Source: Crambe crambe
Lineage: Eukaryota > Porifera > Demospongiae > Poecilosclerida > Crambeidae
Direction: 5' to 3'
Length of the DNA: 64,000 bases
Assembly: GCA_963924555.1 (NCBI GenBank)
Contig: OZ004595.1
Span: 2,046,001-2,110,000 of the forward strand
Under the pieces are notes generated by a model that was not told the DNA's origin, made no database searches, and was given only the letters and a program-made list of their open reading frames with translations. Positions 5,943 to 64,000 of the stretch are shown one piece after another; position 1 is the first letter of the stretch; each line of letters begins with the position of its first letter. A program made the position numbers and the translations under genes.

Positions 5943-7102
5943 ATGAAGTTTGCTGCGCTGTTGCTTCTGCTTGCAGCGTTGTTGCACTTGACCAGCATGT
6001 GCAAAACACACTGGCTGAGTTAGAGAAAAATGTTCAGCTTCTTAAACGTAATCTTGATGAAGCGGAAACAGGTACCTAAAAATGTTTGTCCTTATGTAAA
6101 GATGTTGATATTCTTTATTAATTTTTAGGTTGTGAGAAAAAGATTATTGCTTATTTCAATACTGGCAACTTGCAAGCTTTGTATACTAACGATGTTGATT
6201 ATGTTATTTTCGGATTTGCATATCCAAATGAAGATGGCACAGTTAGTCTTGATGAACAAAATAAAAGAAGACTAGAAGACAATTTAGAAGAGCTTAAAAA
6301 GTTACAAAGTGAAGGTGTCGAGATTCTTATCTCTGTTGGTGGATATGAACATTCTGACAATTTCAAACTTGCATCTGCAACTCCAGAGGGACGAAAGAGT
6401 TTCGCTTCATCATTAAAAGATTTGATGGAGAAATATAAATTTGATGGTGTGGATATCAACTGGGAATATAAAAAAAAAACAGATGCAGCACACTATGTTG
6501 ACCTTGTGCGAGCTATGCGCAAAGCAATCGACAAAGTGATAGGTGTGACGATTTTTCGAATACCAGAAAGGGTGGGCTCTCTTGATTACACATCTTTAAA
6601 TGGTCTAGTGGATTATTACAGTCTCCTTTCATATGAGTACAGTGGTGCAAAATGGAGTAGGCATACAGGCTTCAACACCCCCTTACCTGATATTAAAACA
6701 TCTACTGAGGCTCTACTGGAATTTGGTGTTTCTAAGGAAAAGCTTTACCTAGGTCTTGCCTTTTATGGTCAGCAGTTCGGTGATGTTTATGTAGAGAGTA
6801 ATGGATTTCATCACCCTTTCGATAAGCAGTCATCAAACTCAATGCGCATTGATTACAAGGATATTCAGGACGTTTCAACGGCCCAATATGATCCTAATGC
6901 AGCAGCAGTCTACATCTACCAAGAGTCCAAAAAAGTGTTGATAACTTTTGATAACATTGAATCGATTCGTGCTAAGTGCGAGTATATTAAAAGTCTTGAT
7001 AATGCTGGTGCAATGGTATGGGAACTAGGTGGAGATAAAAATGGCGAATTATTGAAAGCAGTTGTGGAGAGCCTTAAGACTAACTCAGGTATGGCATCAT
7101 GA
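5943..7102 (+). CDS. GH18 chitinase-like protein, copy 1 (catalytic Asp changed)
   Basis: Exons: about 5977-6071 and 6129-7102, with a 57-bp intron (ACAG|GTACCT to TTTTTAG|GT). The first exon encodes a short heptad-like stretch (TLAELEKNVQLLKRNLDEAE), then the GH18 barrel: strand 1 'KIIAYFNTGN', 'ILISVGGYEH' (SxGG), 'FDGVDINWEY' (DxxDxDxE), 'LGLAFYGQQF', 'AMVWELGGD'. Here the third Asp of DxxDxDxE is Asn, so hydrolysis is probably weak or lost; copies 2 and 3 keep Asp. At about 310 residues it lacks the usual large insertion domain. An ATG at 5943 opens a good signal peptide (MKFAALLLLLAALLHLTS), but in a different frame from the barrel, in all three copies; TTCTGCTTGCAG at 5965-5976 may instead be an acceptor. 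The end may be S-stop at 7102, or splice at 7087 to an exon near 7394 giving NSAQ-stop. Confidence 0.75.
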
Positions 7103-13342: not shown

Positions 13343-13735
13343 TTTCTATCCTTTTTTCTTAGTTCTTGAAGTTGAATATTAGTTTGTGTATGTATAAAAG
13401 AATTGAGGGTGAGCACTGTAATTCAGCAAGGAGTGACTGGAACATCATCAGATAAGAATAAATAGCTAGCTAAACGAGACCTAGCTAAGCTTAGCCTAAA
13501 CTTAAGAAGCTTACGTGGCTCCGCCCATACCCCGCCCCCTACCGACATGCGCTTCAAAATGGCGTCGAAAGATTAAGCTAGTGTTCCGAGTGCTCGAATA
13601 GTGAAGTAGAGCCTTAGTCAAAACTAATAGCAAAAGATCAGCCTCTAGGTGCCGCTCTAACAGATGGCCAAAGCAGAATTTTGATGACTATAGCCAGTAA
13701 GCCGGTAGCTACGTCGATCTTATTATTATAAAGAA
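13343..13735 (-). promoter_or_regulatory. Z repeat, copy 3 (reverse strand)
   Basis: Contains the GATCGACGTAGC tip, GCCATTTT box and GC boxes, but its leader is shortened and lacks the ATG segment. Corresponds to 61965-62300 in inverted orientation. Confidence 0.5.
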
Positions 13736-14452
13736 AAAGAACAAAAGTCAATTTTAGACATCGTTTTTTTCTCATGTTAGCGAATGAATTTTTGGTCTTT
13801 GAACATTCTCCTCTCTTCTTTGTAGATGTAATAATTCACTATAGCCTTCTGAGAACCTGTAGAGTAAGGGTAGAAGAGAAAGAAGAGTTTTTAGTTTATA
13901 CAGTCTTATGACCTTTGACCCGCCATCCCTACTTAGAGAGTGCTAGCGCACTCTCTGATTATTATTATTATTATTATTATAAAGAAAAAGAACGAAAAGT
14001 CAATTTTAGAACTCGTTTTTTTCTTATGTTGGCGAATGAATTTTTGGCTTTTGAACATTCTCCTCTCTTCTTTGTAGATATAATAATTCACTGTAGCCTT
14101 CTGAGAACCTGTAGAGTAAGGGTAGAAGAGAAAGAAGAGTTTTTAGTTTATACTGTCCTATGGACTTTGACCTGCCATCCCTACTTAGAGAGTGCTACCG
14201 CACTCTCTGATCCTTATTATAAAGAAAAAGAACGAAAGGTCAATTTTAGAACTCGTTTTTTTCTTATGTTAGCTAATGAATTTTTGGCTTTTGAACATTC
14301 TCCTCTCTTCTTTGTAGATATAATAATTCACTGTAGCCTTCTGAGAACCTGTAGAGTAAGGGTAGAAGAGAAAGAAGAGTTTTTAGTTTATACTGTCCTA
14401 TGGACTTTGACCTGCCATCCCTACTTAGAGAGTGCTACCGCACTCTCTGATA
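13729..14452 (-). repeat. R repeat array, three inverted units
   Basis: Units end (on +) at about 13958, 14210 and 14451 with AGAGAGTGCTAGCGCACTCT-type hairpins and are spaced by ATT triplets. The first keeps TGACCTTTGACCC, a perfect DR1 in reverse; the other two have TGGACTTTGACCTG, a damaged DR1. A long open frame runs through on + (13915-14472), but its repeat structure and TTA-rich joints argue against coding. Confidence 0.85.
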
Positions 14453-15324
14453 TAGATTCTCCAGGTATCTAGCTATGCAGACTATGCTTCCTACACTGTA
14501 ACTATCTTGATAGTAAGATCTTAATTGTCAGAGTCATGCAGGTACAAAGAAACTTTACACAAAGTTTTGTACTGCTGTATTCTTCACTGGCAATACAAAG
14601 GTTATTAGCTACCTGAGAAATAAACATGGATGGTCATGTGACTAGATCACATTTATTAGCATGATGAATTTGTACACTTGGATAAAATTAGCAAGGACTA
14701 TTTCCCTGCAGTGTTATGAAATTCTTGAAGTATAAACTTTGAAGTTATGCTCTTATCACAGAATTTTGTCCAATAATAATTATTATTATTATTATAGATA
14801 CGTGGATTCAAGCAATCTGATTGGTTGAATAATTCACGGTATTTAACGCCTAGACTACGCACATATGTATACGTACCAGGCACGGGCAGAACATATTCGG
14901 GTGCTCCTTCAACCATCGATGGTCATGACCTGTAATACTGGGCACACCTGTTACCTCCACGACAGCAGAAAGAGTAGGGCAAAAGGTCATCTGTCCAAAT
15001 TTAAAAGAAAAGAAAAGGCTAAAGTTTATACATGTAGACAGGTGGCAGCGTAGGCAATCAGTATCAGTATTCAGAATCGTTGAATCGTTGTTTAATTGTA
15101 TTAGCTAGTGTATGTTGCAATCGGCATTAAGGCTAGTGCTATACTGGAACACCTGCAGCTTCTGCTGGAAGGATGAGTCAGTGTAGGACATTCCTTGTGC
15201 TGTTTTAGAATGTGTCAGTGCATTGTGCGTCACATGTTAGTAAGCCTCAAAGCCGATTCTATTATTCAAGTAGTGCCAAATGATGTGTGGGTTCCTCACC
15301 AAGCCTGGGAGCTAGAGAGCATGT
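14453..15324. other. Unique spacer
   Basis: No gene recognised. An ATT triplet run is at about 14773-14796. Small frames (14698-14916, 14865-15053) have no domain or splice support. Confidence 0.5.
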
Positions 15325-21949: not shown

Positions 21950-23103
21950 ATGAAGTTTGCTGCGCTGTTGCTTCTGCTTGCAGCGTTGTTGCACTTGACC
22001 AGCATGTGCAAAACACACTGGCTGAGTTAGAGAAAAATGTTCAGCTTCTTAAACGTAATCTTGATGAAGCGGAAACAGGTCCTAAAAATGTTTGTCCTTA
22101 TGTAAAGATGTTGATATTCTTTATTTTAGGTTGTGAGAAAAAGATTATTGCTTATTTCAATACTGGCAACTTGCAAGCTTTGTATACTAACGATGTTGAT
22201 TATGTTATTTTCGCATTTGCATATCCAAATGAAGATGGCACAGTTAGTCTTGATGAACAAAATAAAAGAAGACTAGAAGACAATTTAGAAGAGCTTAAAA
22301 AGTTACAAAGTAAAGGTGTCGAGATTCTTATCTCTGTTGGTGGATATGAACATTCTGACAATTTCAAACTTGCATCTGCAACTCCAGAGGGACAAAAGAG
22401 TTTCGCTTCATCATTAAAAGATTTGATGGAGAAATATCAATTTGATGGTGTGGATATCGACTGGGAATATAAAAAAAAAGAAGATGCAGCACACTATGTT
22501 GACCTTGTGCGAGCTACGCGCAAAGCAATCGACAAAGTGATAGGTGTGACAATTTTTCGAATACCAGAAAGGGTGGGCTCTCTTGATTACACATCTTTAA
22601 ATGGTCTAGTGGATTATTACAGTCTCCTTTCATATGAGTACAGTGGAGCAGTATGGAGTAGGCGTACAGGCTTCAACACCCCCTTACCTGATATTAAAAC
22701 ATCTACTGAGGCTCTACTGGAATTTGGTGTTTCTAAGAAAAAGCTTTACCTAGGTCTTGCCTTTTATGGTCAGCAGTTCGGTGATGTTAATGTAAAGAGT
22801 AATGGATTTAATCACCCTTTCGATAAGCAGTCATCAAACTCAATGCGCATTGATTACAAGGATATTCAGGACGTTTCAACGGCCCAATATGATCCTAATG
22901 CAGCAGCAGTCTACATCTACCAAGAGTCCGAAAAAGTGTTGACAACTTTTGATAACATTGAATCGATTCGTGCTAAGTGCGAGTATATTAAACGTCTTGA
23001 TAATGCTGGTGCAATGGTATGGGAACTAGGTGGAGATAAAAATGGCGAATTATTGAAAGCAGTTGTGGAGAGCCTTAAGACTAACTCAGGTATGGCATCA
23101 TGA
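21950..23103 (+). CDS. GH18 chitinase-like protein, copy 2 (intact catalytic motif)
   Basis: Same structure as copy 1: possible signal-peptide ATG at 21950 (out of frame with the barrel), coiled segment, then GH18 barrel from about 22130. It keeps SVGG, DGVDIDWEY with all acidic residues, YYSLLSYEYSG, LAFYGQQF and MVWELGGD, so it is expected to bind or cleave beta-1,4-GlcNAc polymers. The first intron (22079-22129) differs: GTACCT is now GTCCT and the intron is 51 bp, divisible by three and free of stops, so read-through would add 17 residues (PKNVCPYVKMLIFFILG) and still reach the barrel. Either it is spliced with a weakened donor, or the intron has become coding. The last exon alternatives are as in copy 1 (splice near 23089 to about 23396). 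Confidence 0.8.
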
Positions 23104-34305: not shown

Positions 34306-35478
34306 ATGAAGTTTGCTGCGCTGTTGCTTCTGCTTGCAGCGTTGTTGCACTTGACCAGCATGTGCAAAACACACTGGCTGAGTTAGAGAAAAATGTTCAG
34401 CTTCTTAAACGTAATCTTGATGAAGCGGAAACAGGTACCTAAAAATGTTTGTCCTTATGTAAAGATGTTGATATTCTTTATTTTAGGTTGTGAGAAAAAG
34501 ATTATTGCTTATTTCAATACTGGCAACTTGCAAGCTTTGTATACTGACGATGTTGATTATGTTATTTTCGCATTTGCATATCCAAATAAAGATGGCACAG
34601 TTAGTCTTGATGAACAAAATAAAAGAAGACTAGAAGACAATTTAGAAGAGCTTAAAAAGTTACAAAGTAAAGGTGTCAAGATTCTTATCTCTGTTGGTGG
34701 ATATGAACATTCTTACAATTTCAAATTTGCATCTAAAACTCCAGAGGGACGAAAGAGTTTCGCTTCATCATTAAAAGATTTGATGGAGGAATATAAATTT
34801 GATGGTGTGGATATCGACTGGGAATATAAAAAATTATTAAATAAAACAGATGCAGCACACTATGTTGACCTTGTGCGAGCTATGCGCAATGCAATCGACA
34901 AAGTGATAGGTGTGACAATTTTTCGAATACCAGAAAGGGTGAGCTCTCTTGATTACACATCTTTAAATGATCTAGTGGATTATTACAGTCTCCTTTCATA
35001 TGAGTACAGTGGTGCAGTATGGAGTAAGCATACAGGCTTCAACACCCCCTTACCTGATATTAAAACATCTACTGAGGCTCTACTGGAATTTGGTGTTTCT
35101 GAGAAAAAGCTTTACATAGGTCTTGCCTTTTATGGTCAGCAGTTCGGTGATGTTGGAAGTGGTAATGTAGAGAATAATGGACTTAATGAACCTTTCGATA
35201 AGCAGTCATCAAACTCAATGCGCATTGATTACAAGGATATTCAGGACGTTTCAACGGCCCAATATGATCCTAATGCAGCAGCAGTCTACATCTACCAAGA
35301 GTCCGAAAAAGTGTTGACAACTTTTGATAACATTGAATCGATTCGTGCTAAGTGCGAGTATATTAAACGTCTTGATAATGCTGGTGCAATGGTATGGGAA
35401 CTAGGTGGAGATAAAAATGGCGAATTATTGAAAGCAGTTGTGGAGAGCCTTAAGACTAACTCAGGTATGGCATCATGA
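34306..35478 (+). CDS. GH18 chitinase-like protein, copy 3 (most diverged)
   Basis: Exons about 34340-34434 and 34487-35478 with a 52-bp intron (ACAG|GTACCT..TTTTAG|GT). DGVDIDWEY is intact. Coding differences from the other copies cluster in two loops: a 2-codon-longer stretch after DWEYKK (LLNKT) and GSGNVENNGLNEP after FGDV. Both are length changes in multiples of three in barrel loops near the substrate side, which suggests retained coding constraint. It shares the out-of-frame signal-peptide ATG (34306) with the other copies. The family acts on chitin or is a chitin-binding lectin; secretion is likely but depends on resolving the start. Confidence 0.78.
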
Positions 35479-57178: not shown

Positions 57179-58130
57179 ATCAGAGAGTGCGCTAGCACTC
57201 TCTAAGTAGGGATGGCGGGTCAAAGGTCATAAGACTGTATAAACTAAAAACTCTTCTTTCTCTTCTACCCTTACTCTACAGGTTCTCAGAAGGCTACAGT
57301 GAATTATTACATCTACAAAGAAGAGAGGAGAATGTTCAAAGACCAAAAATTCATTCGCTAACATGAGAAAAAAACGATGTCTAAAATTGACTTTTGTTCT
57401 TTTTCTTTATAATAATCAGGATAATAATAATAATCAGAGAGTGCGCTAGCACTCTCTAAGTAGGGATGGCGGGTCAAAGGTCATAAGACTGTATAAACTA
57501 AAAACTCTTCTTTCTCTTCTACCCTTACTCTACAGGTTCTCAGAAGGCTACAGTGAATTATTACATCTACAAAGAAGAGAGGAGAATGTTCAAAGACCAA
57601 AAATTCATTCGCTAACATGAGAAAAAAACGATGTCTAAAATTGACTTTTGTTCTTTTTCTTTATCAGAGAGTGCGCTAGCACTCTCTAAGTAGGGATGGC
57701 GGGTCAAAGGTCATAAGACTGTATAAACTAAAAACTCTTCTTTCTCTTCTACCCTTGCTCTACAGGTTCTCAGAAGGCTACAGTGAGATACTACTTCTAC
57801 AAAGAAGAGAGGAGAGTGTTCAAAAACCAAAAATTCATTCGCTAACATAAGAAAAAAACGAGTTCTAAAATTGACTTTTGTTCATTTTCTTTATAATCAG
57901 AGAGTGCGGTAGCACTCTCTAAGTAGGGATGGCAGGTCAAAGTCCATAGGACAGTATAAACTAAAAACTCTTCTTTCTCTTCTACCCTTACTCTACAGGT
58001 TCTCAGAAGGCTACAGTGAATTATTATATCTACAAAGAAGAGAGGAGAATGTTCAAAAGCCAAAAATTCATTCGCCAACATAAGAAAAAAACGAGTTCTA
58101 AAATTGACTTTTCGTTCTTTTTCTTTATAA
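57179..58130 (+). repeat. R repeat array, four tandem units of about 230 bp
   Basis: Unit starts at about 57181, 57435, 57665 and 57898, separated by 0-20 bp of AAT triplets. Units 1-3 have GGGTCAAAGGTCA (perfect DR1); unit 4 has AGGTCAAAGTCCA. It is the mirror image of 13729-14452. Confidence 0.9.
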
Positions 58131-58382
58131 TAATAATAATAATAATAATAATAAGGATAATAATAATAATAAGATCGACGTACCGACTTACTGGCTATAG
58201 TCATCAAAATTCTGCTTTGGCCATCTGTTAGAGCGGCACCTAGAGGCTGATCTTTTGCTATTAGTTTTGACTAAGGCTCTACTTCACTATTCGATAGCAC
58301 TCGGAACACAGCTGCTAATCTTTCTACGCCATTTTGAAGGGGGCGGGGCTTATGGGCGGAGCCACGTAAGCTTAAGTTTAGC
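58131..58382 (+). promoter_or_regulatory. Z repeat, copy 4, left part (split by transposon)
   Basis: An (AAT)n run, then the GATCGACGTACCG tip, GCCATTTT box and GGGGGCGGGGCTTATGGGCG boxes. The unit continues at 60671 after the transposon. Joined, it is the reverse complement of 12.57-13.10 kb. Confidence 0.6.
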
Positions 58383-60670
58383 CATAGATACTATACTCCG
58401 CCCCGGGATTGGAAACCGGAGATTTCCCGCGGACACTCCGTGTTGGAGGAGAAATTGCGCGCGAAAATTTGTCGCTATGACAATAACCTAAAGCTCTGGC
58501 TTTAGAATGGCTTCTTGTTTTACAGCAAGCATACTAGATGAGCTAGAAGGATAAGATAAGCTACAGTACTTACATGTTTGAATACACTACTTACAAGTAT
58601 AAACCATCACAATAAGTTTACTAATAAATCTGTTGCTGAAGGCTGTCAATGCTTTATACTAGCAGATGATTCTTTCAAATTAGATACTGAAGCTACAAAA
58701 AGTTCATATGAAATTGCTGAAAACTATCTCGCTTTAATATCATCGAAAATGAAACTGTCGTTTCAATATTTGAAGCCAGACTAACACTGGTGCTAGGTAG
58801 CTGCATCGAATGGAGAAGAACAAAACAAAATAAAAACAGAGAGCAAACATGGTCATCTTACCACAAAATATGAGTGTGTGATAAGTACCAAATAACAAAT
58901 CCTGTACAATATTTTATCAGTATAATTTTATTGGACATCACATTTTTAAGGAACTGATAAAGATCTGTCATCCTGTACCTACTGTAGCTTCCACTCCACC
59001 ACCATCATTAACTTACAATGAAAGAAACGCTCTACGATATGTTGCTGGATATATATTCCAAGACTGTTGAAAAAGAAACTTTCTACTTCAACTCACCCAT
59101 TGAAAAAGGACATAATTTTGTGCATCAGTGATCTACTGGCTGATGATGGTGATGAAGAAGATGATGATGATGACTCACATGACTGGGTAGACCTAGTGGA
59201 TCGTGGTGGTCTTACCCTAGTAAACAATAAAACATTTGATGTTTTTGTTGCGATAGAATACGAGGTGAGAAACAGACTGGGAAAAGATATGGAGCTGACA
59301 GATGCGGTTATGAAGGAGATAGCAGAAAGCGATCAAGTTGCCTTTTTTTGGTCCCTCTTGAATGAGGAATGGCAAGAGGAGAGCAGTGTTGCCCTCCTGC
59401 ATATGGTGGTCAGCCAGTTTTTTGGATTTTCCTATGCCTCCTCGTGGATAGAAAACTTTAAGGCCACACATAAGAAAACCACGCAAAAATCAAAAGGAAT
59501 AAGAAAACAACTAATTTCTGAATCTAGTTCCAGTGAGTGTCACCCCAATCATCTTAAATATTGATGTTATAATAATGTACTTATGGAATAATGTCAGCAT
59601 CTAGCTACATGCTATACTAATATAACCCAAGAGGCTTTTTAGACACTTTCCGTGGTCTTGGTCTTTTAGGAAGGGGTCTTGAATTTTCTTTTACTGATGA
59701 TGTCATTTTGATGAGGTTGGTATCTGCATTTCCAGTACATACTTTGCTGGAATCAATTTTTGGTTTCAATAGCTGGAACACTTGATACCACAGTATAGGT
59801 AAATTCCACAATACAATTCACAGGATTCAGCTTGTTGTTGGGAAATGATATGCTCTAAGCCCATTGATCGCTCTCTGCTGCTGCTTCTTTCTGCACGATC
59901 TTCGAGCACTCAAGCGAAACTTCCTTCCACCCATGGCTGATAGAAATAAATACATAGCTAGCCTTATATAGCTTATTATCCCATGCACAATGCACAGCTA
60001 TAGTCATGGTTGTAGTTAGCTAGCTATAGCTATATGAATGTGGTGTTACTTTACAGATAGCTGATCAATGTCATAATTTATAGATTAGCAAAAGTGCATC
60101 ATTACAAGAGTACACTAAATCTTATATTGCTCAAGCGATAATCTAGTCCTAGCTTTAGTATTTGCATGATGGAGCTTTTCTTTTAATATTATAGTACTGA
60201 TGTTCTTCCCCCGACTAGTTAAGACCCTATCATACCTCTAACTGAGTAAAACTAGACTATCATTGTAGCACACTTGTTATAAACAAGCTCAAGCGATATC
60301 CCAATCCTAGTTGCAGCAGATTCATGAAAAAATAATGCTCAAATGCTCCTTATATGGACATTCTTACCCCAACAAGTTCTGTACATATATTTATTTCTTG
60401 GAGTGAGAATATCTCTATCCCAAACTGCTTTTGCTCTACTGAATTTATAGCATTAGTAAGTTACCTATGGATACTAAAGTTTGACCATCTTTTTACCGTA
60501 TAGATTCTATTGCACACCTTATAATAACGAAAAAACCTCCGTTGCTACGGCTTGTTGACGACCGTTACTATACAACACGGAGTGTCCGCGCATGTTTTGT
60601 ATTGTTGTAATGGAAAATTTTGGATGCGCAGACTTCGTTTCCAATCCCGGGGCGGAGTATAGTATCTATG
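58383..60670. mobile_element. CATAGATA-type transposon with transposase remnant, 2288 bp
   Basis: Perfect 34-bp inverted ends, CATAGATACTATACTCCGCC through GGATTGGAAAC, and 7-bp duplication GTTTAGC (58376-58382, 60671-60677). The sister Z copy at 12892-12898 shows the empty site. The CA..TG ends and 7-bp duplication are compatible with P-superfamily elements, but I could not prove the superfamily. It is the only member here with protein-coding remains. Confidence 0.9.
59017..59564 (+). pseudogene. C-terminal transposase remnant
   Basis: A 'NERNALRYVAGYIFQ' motif at 59017-59061 is in one frame. The following 'HPLKKDIILCISDLLADDGD..DWVDLVDRGGLTLVNNKTF..SSWIENFKATHKKTTQKSKG' lies in another (59067-59564, to the stop), so a frame shift separates them. 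YVAGYI-type motifs followed by this C-terminal domain are, from memory, widespread in sponge and cnidarian repeat proteins. The N-terminal catalytic part is not visible in the 640 bp upstream within the element. It cannot encode an active enzyme. Confidence 0.6.
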
Positions 60671-61004: not shown

Positions 61005-61488
61005 GTGAGCGTAAAAAATTTCTTCAAATAAAAAGGTTAAGTAGGGATAGCCTAAAATCTAGCTGGGCTATCTATAATGTGCTGCAGCCTCGTATGAAAA
61101 AAATCTTCGCGATATTACCTCATAAAAGGGGTGGGGCAATTAATAGCAGTTCTCCTCATATAACACCTGCACAGGATGTGGCCATTTGATGGCATCCACT
61201 ATTATGATCACTACACCAAATGCATAAACTCCCCATACTCCTCCCTCAAGCAAGACATACGTACCATCTCAATAATTATTTCAGTGATCACATATGTAAC
61301 AATTAGCTAATGCTGTTCACTTTTTAAAATGTTCACTCCTTTCAGTACTCCATTACACTGCAGATGATCATCCTTCAAACTCTCCTCCCTGAACAGAATG
61401 AAATACTGATCATTAAATAAATTTAGTTCAATCAAGGAAGCCTTTAGTGTCTATCAATTTTCATAATCACAAAGAAAAAGAATGCAAA
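61005..61488 (+). repeat. Half Y element plus spacer
   Basis: Inverted duplicate of 12086-12573. No coding frame. Confidence 0.75.
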
Positions 61489-61934
61489 CAAGTGAATGCA
61501 AAAAATTTCTTCGAAATAAAAATGTGAAGTAGGGATGCTATTATAACTGCAGCTTCATTATGAAAACCAAGTACTGCAGCATCGAAGCAGTATGGCCCAA
61601 AAATCTAGCTGGAATATGTATTATAACTGCATGCAAGAGAGTGAACTTAGTGAAGTGACCCTTACCCATCATCAAGTACAAGATACTATTCCTACTTCAC
61701 TCCCTTGGCCCTTGATCATGGGAGTGAAGTAGGAATAGTATCTCGTACTTGATGATGGGTAAGGGTCACTTCACTAAGTTCACTCTCTTGCATGCAGTTA
61801 TAATACATATTCCAGCTAGATTTTTGGGCCATACTGCTTCGATGCTGCAGTACTTGGTTTTCATAATGAAGCTGCAGTTATAATAGCATCCCTACTTCAC
61901 ATTTTTATTTCGAAGAAATTTTTTGCATTCACTT

Positions 61935-61935
<1 letters not shown>
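61489..61935. repeat. X fold-back element, copy 2
   Basis: 447-bp palindrome; both arms lack the TAGCTAATAATTATTA segment present in the 11571 copy, as if one arm had been corrected against the other. Confidence 0.9.
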
Positions 61936-61965
<30 letters not shown>

Positions 61966-62300: not shown

Positions 62301-62351
62301 ACATACACAAACTAATATTCAACTTCAAGAACTAAGAAAAAAGGATAGAAA

Positions 62352-62609
62352 CAAGTGAGTGCAAAAAATTTCTTCTAAATAAAAAGGTTAAGTAGGGATA
62401 GCCTAAAATCTAGCTGGGCTATATAATGTACTGCAGCCTCGTATGAATACAATCCCTACTTTTACAACTGCTATAGCTAGCTATAGGTAGTGGATGTAAA
62501 TGTAGGGATTATATTCATACGAGGCTGCAGTACATTATATAGCCCAGCTAGATTTTAGGCTATCCCTACTTAACCTTTTTATTTAGAAGAAATTTTTTGC
62601 ACTCACTTG
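62352..62609. repeat. Y fold-back element, copy 3
   Basis: Complete palindrome with CAAGTGAGTGCAAAAAATTT tips and a TATAGCTAGCTATAG centre near 62473-62487. Followed by (AAT)n. Confidence 0.9.
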
Positions 62610-62629
62610 TAATAATAATAATAATAATC

Positions 62630-62946
62630 AGATCGGCGTACTGACTAACTGGCTATAGTCATCAGAATTCTGTTCGGGCCATCTGTTAGAGCGGCACCTA
62701 GAGGCTGATCTTTTGCTATTAGTTTTCACTACAGTTCCATTTCACAATTCAGTGATTATGGAACACTAGCTAATCTTTCTTCGCCATTTTAAGGGCGGGG
62801 CCACATAGGTGCGCGCTAGCTAGAGCTGTTCAGCTTTGATATCTATACTTCAGCTAGCTATTTCTTGTGTTTCAGTCATTCCTCAGTACAGATTCTCATC
62901 CTACACATAATCAGTACTTAGCTCTGTGCAGTTTGCTCACTTCACC
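62630..62946 (+). promoter_or_regulatory. Z repeat, copy 6: inferred promoter of the microexon gene
   Basis: The most diverged Z unit: GATCGGCGTACTG tip, CGCCATTTT at about 62783-62791, GGGCGGGGCC at about 62794-62803, TTCAGTCATTCCTCAGTACAG in the leader, and CTCACTTCACC directly before the ATG. It runs without a break into the first coding exon. Confidence 0.5.
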
Positions 62947-63443
62947 ATGCCAGTGCCTCCAGAAGGTAAGGAACTATAGATAACGCATTTCCATTCATTA
63001 CTCTTACAATTACATCATCCAGTGCCACCTCCAGCCGCGCACCCCCTCCCAGAAGGTAAGCAACTATGGAAATTTCTCCACTCTCACAATTACATCATCC
63101 AGTGCCACCTCCAGCTTAGTCTGGCGTAGCGGCGACCCTTACTACCTCCAGCTGTGCGCCCCATCCCAGAAGGTAAGCAACTACATGTATGTAGAATTAT
63201 CACATTCACTGCTCTTACAATTACATCATCCAGTGCCACCTCCAGCCGCGCACCCCCTCCCAGAAGGTAAGCAACTATGGAAATTTCTCCACTCTCACAA
63301 TTACATCATCCAGTCCCACCTCCAGCTGTGCGCCCCATCCCAGAAGGTGAGCAACTACATGTATGTAGAATTATCACATTCACTGTTCTTACAATTACAT
63401 CATCCAGTGCCACCTCCACCCGCACGCCGCCCCCTCCCAGAAG
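62947..63443 (+). CDS. Proline-rich protein encoded by tandem 33-bp microexons (5' part)
   Basis: Coding exons: 62947-62965 (MPVPPE), 63023-63055, 63103-63172 (or 63152-63172), 63234-63266, 63314-63346, 63408-63443; the gene probably continues beyond the window. Every intron is GT-AG (GTAAG or GTGAG donors, TTACATCATCCAG acceptors) and all splice after codon base 1. Each 33-nt exon encodes VPPPA[AV][HR]P[LI]PE; exon 6 has one extra codon. Introns alternate 57-61 and 47 bp, so the array arose by duplicating an exon pair of about 190 bp. Exon 3 carries a 37-bp insert with an in-frame TAG; an internal acceptor (CTACCTCCAG, 63142-63151) yields a 21-nt in-frame exon, or the exon can be skipped. 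No signal peptide. The repeat would form a polyproline-type helix; its role is unknown. Confidence 0.65.
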
Positions 63444-64000
63444 GTAAGCAACTATCAGTCTACACTAAGACCACGGTATTGTAGTGATTGTGGAATGTAC
63501 TGTTAACAGCAATCAACAAGCATGAATATCATTACTAATAATTCACACGTTAGATTATTGTATCACATATGCGAGCAAGCCAAAGTACAGCAGAGATGTC
63601 TGAAGCCTCTGAGGGTTCCAGCTATCTTCATATTCTGAATCATCCTGCTCCTGAAGTTCTGTGGTATCATCCCACTTGATTAGGTCATTGCAATCGAACC
63701 ATTATTCATGTTTGCGGTCGCCAAAATATTGTCCAACACCCACGCAACTTGACCAAAGTTCACCTAATGTTTCATTATATAATTATTGGTTTTCTCATGT
63801 CTATATTTTCATCGGGTAATGGTCTACTGGTTGAAAAAGGTCATTTAGACTTAGGTCAGGCCTCCAATTAGCCTGTGGAGCCAGTTTCTTCGTGCAGCGA
63901 CCCTTGGCTCCTACTTGTGCAGTCTACTGAAATCGAGGTGGTCGATAGAGTCTCTTCAATAGAACAGGCTATATTTTACCTAGCGTTTGATTAGTAAAGG
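63444..64000. other. Probable intron or 3' region of the microexon gene
   Basis: Begins with GTAAGCAACTATC, like the earlier introns, but no further 33-bp exon or ATCATCCAG acceptor follows in the window. No other gene recognised. Confidence 0.5.

Follow-up and report, generated by a model that had tools for sequence, protein, structure and literature searches.

The array of mini-exons near the right-hand end of the window (the whole stretch of 64,000 nucleotides under analysis, which lies within a 6.57-Mb contig) is probably the front half of one dispersed copy, transposon-like in character and damaged in part, of a small gene made mostly of frame-neutral mini-exons, a design known best from schistosomes. 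We assign a probability of about 0.7 to the reading that this array forms the 5' portion of a real gene built of symmetric phase-1 micro-exons, in a copy that a mobile element carries and that has partly decayed, and it is likely that the family of such genes is real, was spread by a mobile element and varies in array length at the level of the DNA. As read from the sequence, array and tail are joined in a single frame, the tail is constrained and the units are mostly frame-neutral. The genome used for comparison comprised 143 Mb; the window locus is referred to as L009, and a window position equals the L009 coordinate plus 61000. The features of the locus that fall within the window are as follows.

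62351..62610 (L009:1351-1610), no strand: foldback hairpin with 123-nt arms at 96%, directly left of the leader
62611..62946, + strand: leader belonging to a dispersed repeat family, together with a (TAA)n run, immediately 5' of the in-frame ATG
62947..62965, + strand: first exon of 19 nt, counted from its ATG, ATG CCA GTG CCT CCA GAA G, read as MPVPPE, phase 1 at the donor
63023..63055, + strand: 33-nt micro-exon read as VPPPAAHPLPE
63103..63172, + strand: exon 3, 70-nt form, read with an in-frame stop
63152..63172, + strand: exon 3, inner-acceptor form of 21 nt, read as AVRPIPE
63234..63266, + strand: 33-nt micro-exon read as VPPPAAHPLPE
63314..63346, + strand: 33-nt micro-exon read as VPPPAVRPIPE
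63408..63443, + strand: 36-nt micro-exon read as VPPPPARRPLPE
63456..64000 in the window, no strand: inserted element of 1063 bp that runs to about 64518, with inverted ends of 29-nt arms at 93%

The initial annotation had described six blocks of 19, 33, 70/21, 33, 33 and 36 nt, and every coordinate proved exact to the base; the introns that these coordinates delimit measure 57, 47, 61 (after the 70/21-nt exon), 47 and 61 bp and have GT..AG borders. The repeat exons follow the pattern TG CCA CCT CCA ... CCA GAA G, a split GTG opens each regular block, and each block comprises the 11 codons VPPPAxxPxPE (or 12, in the 36-nt form) with phase 1 at both ends. The proposal of one phase throughout holds for the exon borders and fails for the open frame when the 70-nt form of exon 3 is used, and the related proposal that any exon could be skipped or duplicated without loss of frame holds for the regular units and fails for this same exon. 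Exon 3 exceeds the regular unit by 37 nt, its whole reading gives VPPPA followed by a stop in the array frame, and the frame is kept only by the 21-nt inner-acceptor form or by skipping. By eye, the gain in this exon (63103-63172) resembles a 29-nt insert between two copies of ACCTCCAG, the insert supplying its own possible splice acceptor. A search for more exons past the window found that the array continues, with repeat units up to 65222 and the tail stop at 65541. The locus contains in total 14 repeat blocks, namely the ATG exon and 13 blocks with acceptor and donor, of which eight lie downstream of the inserted element and lead into the tail. The sixth intron is 1114 bp long with the 1063-bp element inside it; CTAT flanks this element on both sides (exact ends and duplication judged by eye), and its sequence recurs at many other places in the genome. 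Reading the whole unit as a single open frame on either strand was rejected, each of the six frames containing 4 to 19 stops, and the longest open stretch in the six frames of L009:3514-4300 is 115 codons.

It had also been suggested that a working gene could skip its symmetric micro-exons in many combinations, yielding a ladder of repeat lengths. The regular units of 33 or 36 nt with phase 1-1 would allow this, the stop in exon 3 would in any case have to be dodged by skipping or by the inner acceptor, and across eukaryotes short exons are associated with skipping (PMC6142364). The same source, however, describes skipped exons as usually flanked by longer introns, whereas those of the array measure 47-61 bp, and in Amphimedon queenslandica exon skipping makes up 1.8% of splicing events against 45% for intron retention (PMC4432959), a comparison that counts only if the window likewise comes from a sponge. 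Moreover, the window locus is a damaged copy, and its membership of a repeat family, its frame-breaking exon 3 and the insert in one of its introns argue against it as a working gene. The splicing ladder is possible, yet we regard it as quite improbable as an account of the array, and the length differences visible so far are in the DNA. Given introns this short, splicing of the whole array with some retained introns is expected rather than free skipping.

The stronger evidence for a real gene comes from the tail. The last block, VPSPASHPHPE, continues into GAWRGRARARRRGRGRQWFCPFP, which is followed by an exon encoding YPNMYNGN and then by an exon encoding LHFHYHGR and a stop. These three tail exons are in phase 1 throughout, as read by eye at the window locus and as checked at other loci, and the tail stays in frame across introns both in loci of the window type (A) and in a second subfamily (B). 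The tail thereby fixes the frame, whereas the array alone proves little, since a stop-free 33-nt repeat is open in any frame. Between L016 and L034, two other loci of the family, the 66-nt tail core shows 18 differences, 13 silent and 5 not, where the random mean is 6.06 silent (p=0.0002; frames +1 and +2 gave p=0.98 and 0.92); for other pairs the corresponding results were 0 of 5000 random trials (L016-L035) and p=0.0146 (L034-L035). The tail strings were picked by patterns that fix bases at several codons and that matched in 21 of 32 loci (8 A, 13 B), and those of L016, L034 and L035 agree with unfiltered alignments. Judged from these codon patterns, the tail is under protein-level constraint. 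By eye, the length changes of the first tail exon within A amount to 6 or 24 nt. The repeat exons of L016 and L034 exhibit no third-position excess, with 82, 118 and 99 pairwise differences at positions 1, 2 and 3, and those of all loci read exhibit a slight one (1523, 1671 and 2033); for want of such an excess in the two loci, constraint is demonstrated for the tail only.

The family to which the array belongs includes at least 19 A-type loci, L016 among them, whose 19 sequences were all obtained, and further A-type tails exist beyond these. Subfamily B occupies at least 26 places at 82 to 100% identity to the B query, a count that excludes A-type places, and 13 B loci were read; all locus counts are lower bounds. 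Exon lengths in A are multiples of three in 160 of 172 units (51 of 60 among distinct sequences), the frame-neutral units comprising 130 of 33 nt, 29 of 36 nt and one of 21 nt, and the frame-breaking exceptions being of 70 nt (five), 37 nt (four), 20 nt (two) and 31 nt (one). The 172 exons exclude the first tail exon (17 A loci) as well as 29 further donors that have no acceptor within 80 nt. Among A introns, 33 of 183 are multiples of three (17 of 62 distinct), the introns before the first tail exon being included; in B the figures are 73/84 for exons and 30/71 for introns. Array introns are mostly 41-65 bp long across the family. These length counts are not independent, the units being mutual duplicates, and the codon pattern of the tail exons is for this reason the stronger evidence.

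The copies vary in array length and in their state of decay. From 3 to 17 units were counted per locus in the 19 A loci, and the 70-nt exon form occurs three times within L011, as would be expected of tandem duplication in the DNA. At least one frame-breaking unit is present in 8 of 19 A loci, and a 52-nt frame-breaking exon in 9 of 13 B loci. Four copies at separate places (L018, L021, L023 and L027) have no last tail exon, L024 and L025 lack nearly all of it, L017 lacks most of the 24-nt exon, the last acceptor of L014 has 4 extra nucleotides, and no tail is present in L019 or L026. Paralogue pieces were also seen at C3:3424k, C3:1725k and C3:3944k.

The borders of the copies point to a mobile element. 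The leader ATG was found in 16 of 19 A loci, and wherever the first exon could be measured (14 of 19 A loci) its length is 1 modulo 3, which places the leader ATG in frame in 14/14 cases, these leaders being related by descent. Out of 11 A loci for which the left border was obtained, eight could be aligned to a common start point, TATCAGAGAG..., left of which the flanks are unrelated except for L024 and L025, which are alike; L009, L021 and L027 have other sequence left of the leader. The right foldback end is present in eight loci with differing flanks. Constant ends in unrelated flanks, as in a gene-capturing DNA transposon, were thus found on the left and at a putative right end, and the two ends may or may not belong to one unit. 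Inspection by eye of two loci, L018 and L019, revealed no clear target-site duplication. The left end together with the leader belongs to a family with 1602 first-look candidates, 40 of which were scored, and the B leader is common to 10 of 11 aligned B loci, with L034 as the one without it. Two further, near-perfect foldback hairpins lie at 61488-61936 (arms of 220 nt) and L009:5562-6089 (arms of 241 nt). These two and the hairpin at 62351-62610 have common outer ends, ACAAGTGA.TGCAAAAAATT. Tandem repeats of about 230-254 bp at 1490-1956, 13716-14453 and 57179-58131 of the window are related to the mobile element's left end, and (ATA)n with leader-like sequence adjoins two of the three.

Foldback hairpins with such arms, the tandem repeats related to the left end, and a codon bias that is absent from the repeat exons would all agree with the array being a tandem repeat, satellite-like in nature and internal to a foldback transposon, much as the TIR-220 repeats are in Tetris of Drosophila virilis, and having splice-like borders only by descent and no role in a protein. 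The codon constraint of the tail in one frame only, the restriction of multiples of three to exon as opposed to intron lengths, and the full frame of L016 speak against such an origin, which we consider very unlikely. Elsewhere in the window, a frame at 59131-59563 (...HDWVDLVDRGGLTLVNNKTFDVFVAIEYEVRNRL...) is perhaps transposon-related, as judged by eye, and three frames of glycosyl hydrolase family 18 (chitinase-like) occur at 6170-7102, 22006-23103 and 34393-35478 with Pfam E values of 8e-55, 5.5e-56 and 1.1e-56, respectively. The latter look like large tandem copies, with several short repeats at matching offsets.

Two loci, L016 and L034, are without the leader and have in common a 5' region of low copy number in which a TATA-like box (by eye) and splice-like borders occur. 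A genome comparison with the 5' region of L030 matched L034 itself and L016, the latter at 85% and split into two pieces; it also found 457 bases copied exactly at C3:1856909, besides some short or weak pieces. The L016 model, which leaves out one unit with a lost acceptor, has 13 coding exons that add up to 513 nt and 170 residues with a single stop at the end; all 11 internal exons are multiples of three, and 11 of the 13 coding exons are of 36 nt or less, accounting for 309 of 513 coding nucleotides as the sum of exon lengths. From predicted start to stop the model spans C1:6930104-6931419. Its predicted start exon, ATG TCC A, joins in phase a 102-nt proline-rich exon, after which the array follows. 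These extra 5' exons and the start exon are not present in the copies read, and the N-terminal 36 residues have one match in the genome. L034 is without the start exon of L016 and may be broken or start elsewhere. The L016 protein matched no Pfam family at E 0.01 and no chain among solved structures at E 0.1, and its predicted N-terminus, MSTPTSPIPPSPPPTPT, has by eye no hydrophobic stretch, so that a signal peptide is not apparent given the predicted start exon. A bacterial promoter scan was set aside as uninformative for a eukaryote.

On these sequence features, L016 and L034 are probably two source genes. The host gene of a captured piece should also exist outside the element, and the two leaderless loci with their low-copy 5' region correspond to such a gene. 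The transfer likely ran from gene to element, a direction to be taken with caution because the right foldback also adjoins L016 and L034. This adjacency, along with the at least 45 dispersed places, would also suit a micro-exon gene that was the transposon's own from the start, with L016 and L034 as settled or derived copies. We find that origin unlikely, although it deserves some weight: L016 has 5' exons and a start exon that the copies read do not have, L016 and L034 have their 5' region and its TATA-like box in common, several high-scoring left-end places do not appear among the array places listed, all these listings being limited in length, and four copies show the identical loss of the last exon at separate places.

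Under the preferred reading of a captured gene, the element would have taken up the source gene rather than the reverse and would have provided a new in-frame ATG, and transcripts would be spliced as drawn here. Arrays may grow and shrink as units of one exon plus its intron are tandemly duplicated, a change that would be harmless and alter repeat number only, since the regular units are symmetric with phase 1-1. The predicted product is a proline-rich repeat chain followed by a basic Arg/Gly stretch and a conserved FCPFPYPNMY..LHFHYH end; that it is a structural or scaffold protein is a guess.

One observation is not predicted by the captured-gene explanation, namely that exons diverge faster than introns. 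When L016 is compared with L034, differences occupy 39 of 146 sites in the coding tail exons and 10 of 235 in the four introns between or after them, which makes these exons about six times more divergent; the first tail exon is gapped, and its count may partly reflect misalignment, while the two gap-free exons differ at 15 of 53 sites. Ten surrounding stretches, chosen where the alignment had few gaps and including one untranslated exon, differ by about 2 to 10%. An exception (13/40) is the partial intron that precedes the first tail exon, which is taken as reflecting different units in L016 and L034. Eight locus pairs were counted, of which six show the exon excess with p from 0.017 to 5.6e-10 (the pairs not being independent), and two pairs of recent copies show none. 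CpG decay was rejected as the cause, as 31 of 39 exon changes lie outside CpG and 8 involve it, and so was classical positive selection on the tail core, where silent changes dominate. In toxin genes, exons evolve faster through changes that alter the protein; the changes in the tail core of L016 and L034 are instead mostly silent. A speculative and rather doubtful account is that the dozens of mobile exon copies drove the source genes to diverge in their exons only, and there mostly by silent changes: small RNAs from the copies would target only spliced mRNA, and silent exon changes would then represent escape. Alternatively, exons may have been exchanged precisely with the cDNA of an old paralogue, which, if true, would be as novel as escape from small RNAs.

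Several known systems resemble parts of this arrangement. Pack-type elements and Helitrons carry and multiply a piece of a host gene, introns included, inside the element, and the captured piece in the present case differs in being an array that itself expands. The PEVK region of titin likewise has Pro/Glu/Val-rich repeats in symmetric exons, although its exons are longer and belong to one giant gene that is not mobile, whereas those of the array are shorter and mobile. The initial annotation considered one repeat per micro-exon unusual, which is fair; nevertheless, schistosome micro-exon genes (MEGs) likewise consist for the most part of symmetric exons no longer than 36 bp that can be lost without a change of frame, and transposable elements are enriched around them (PMC8293314). 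The L016 model is similar in being composed mostly of symmetric exons of 36 nt or less. MEGs, by contrast, have a signal peptide, and their introns range from 100 bp to nearly 5000 bp (PMC10526429 and PMC8293314), against array introns of mostly 41-65 bp and no signal peptide apparent by eye in the L016 model. One exon also equals one protein repeat here, and the likeness to MEGs is one of exon design. The Tetris element of Drosophila virilis is a foldback with internal tandem TIR-220 repeats of about 220 bp and modular variants (PMC4079207); foldback structure, internal repeats of this size and modular variants are alike in the two systems, but the Tetris repeats are described as building blocks of satellites and not as coding exons.

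Among the literature matches listed, no micro-exon gene was found in a sponge and none carried by a transposon. Micro-exon genes are known and so is gene capture by transposons; as far as those matches go, the joining of the two, with one repeat per exon, is new. The family would represent an apparent, mostly symmetric micro-exon gene outside schistosomes that a mobile element has copied together with its introns, and in which array length can drift freely, as every regular unit leaves the frame intact. With at least 45 places and two probable source genes, it offers a system for studying the growth of exon arrays and the reason why coding exons outpace the introns beside them although the protein is mostly preserved.
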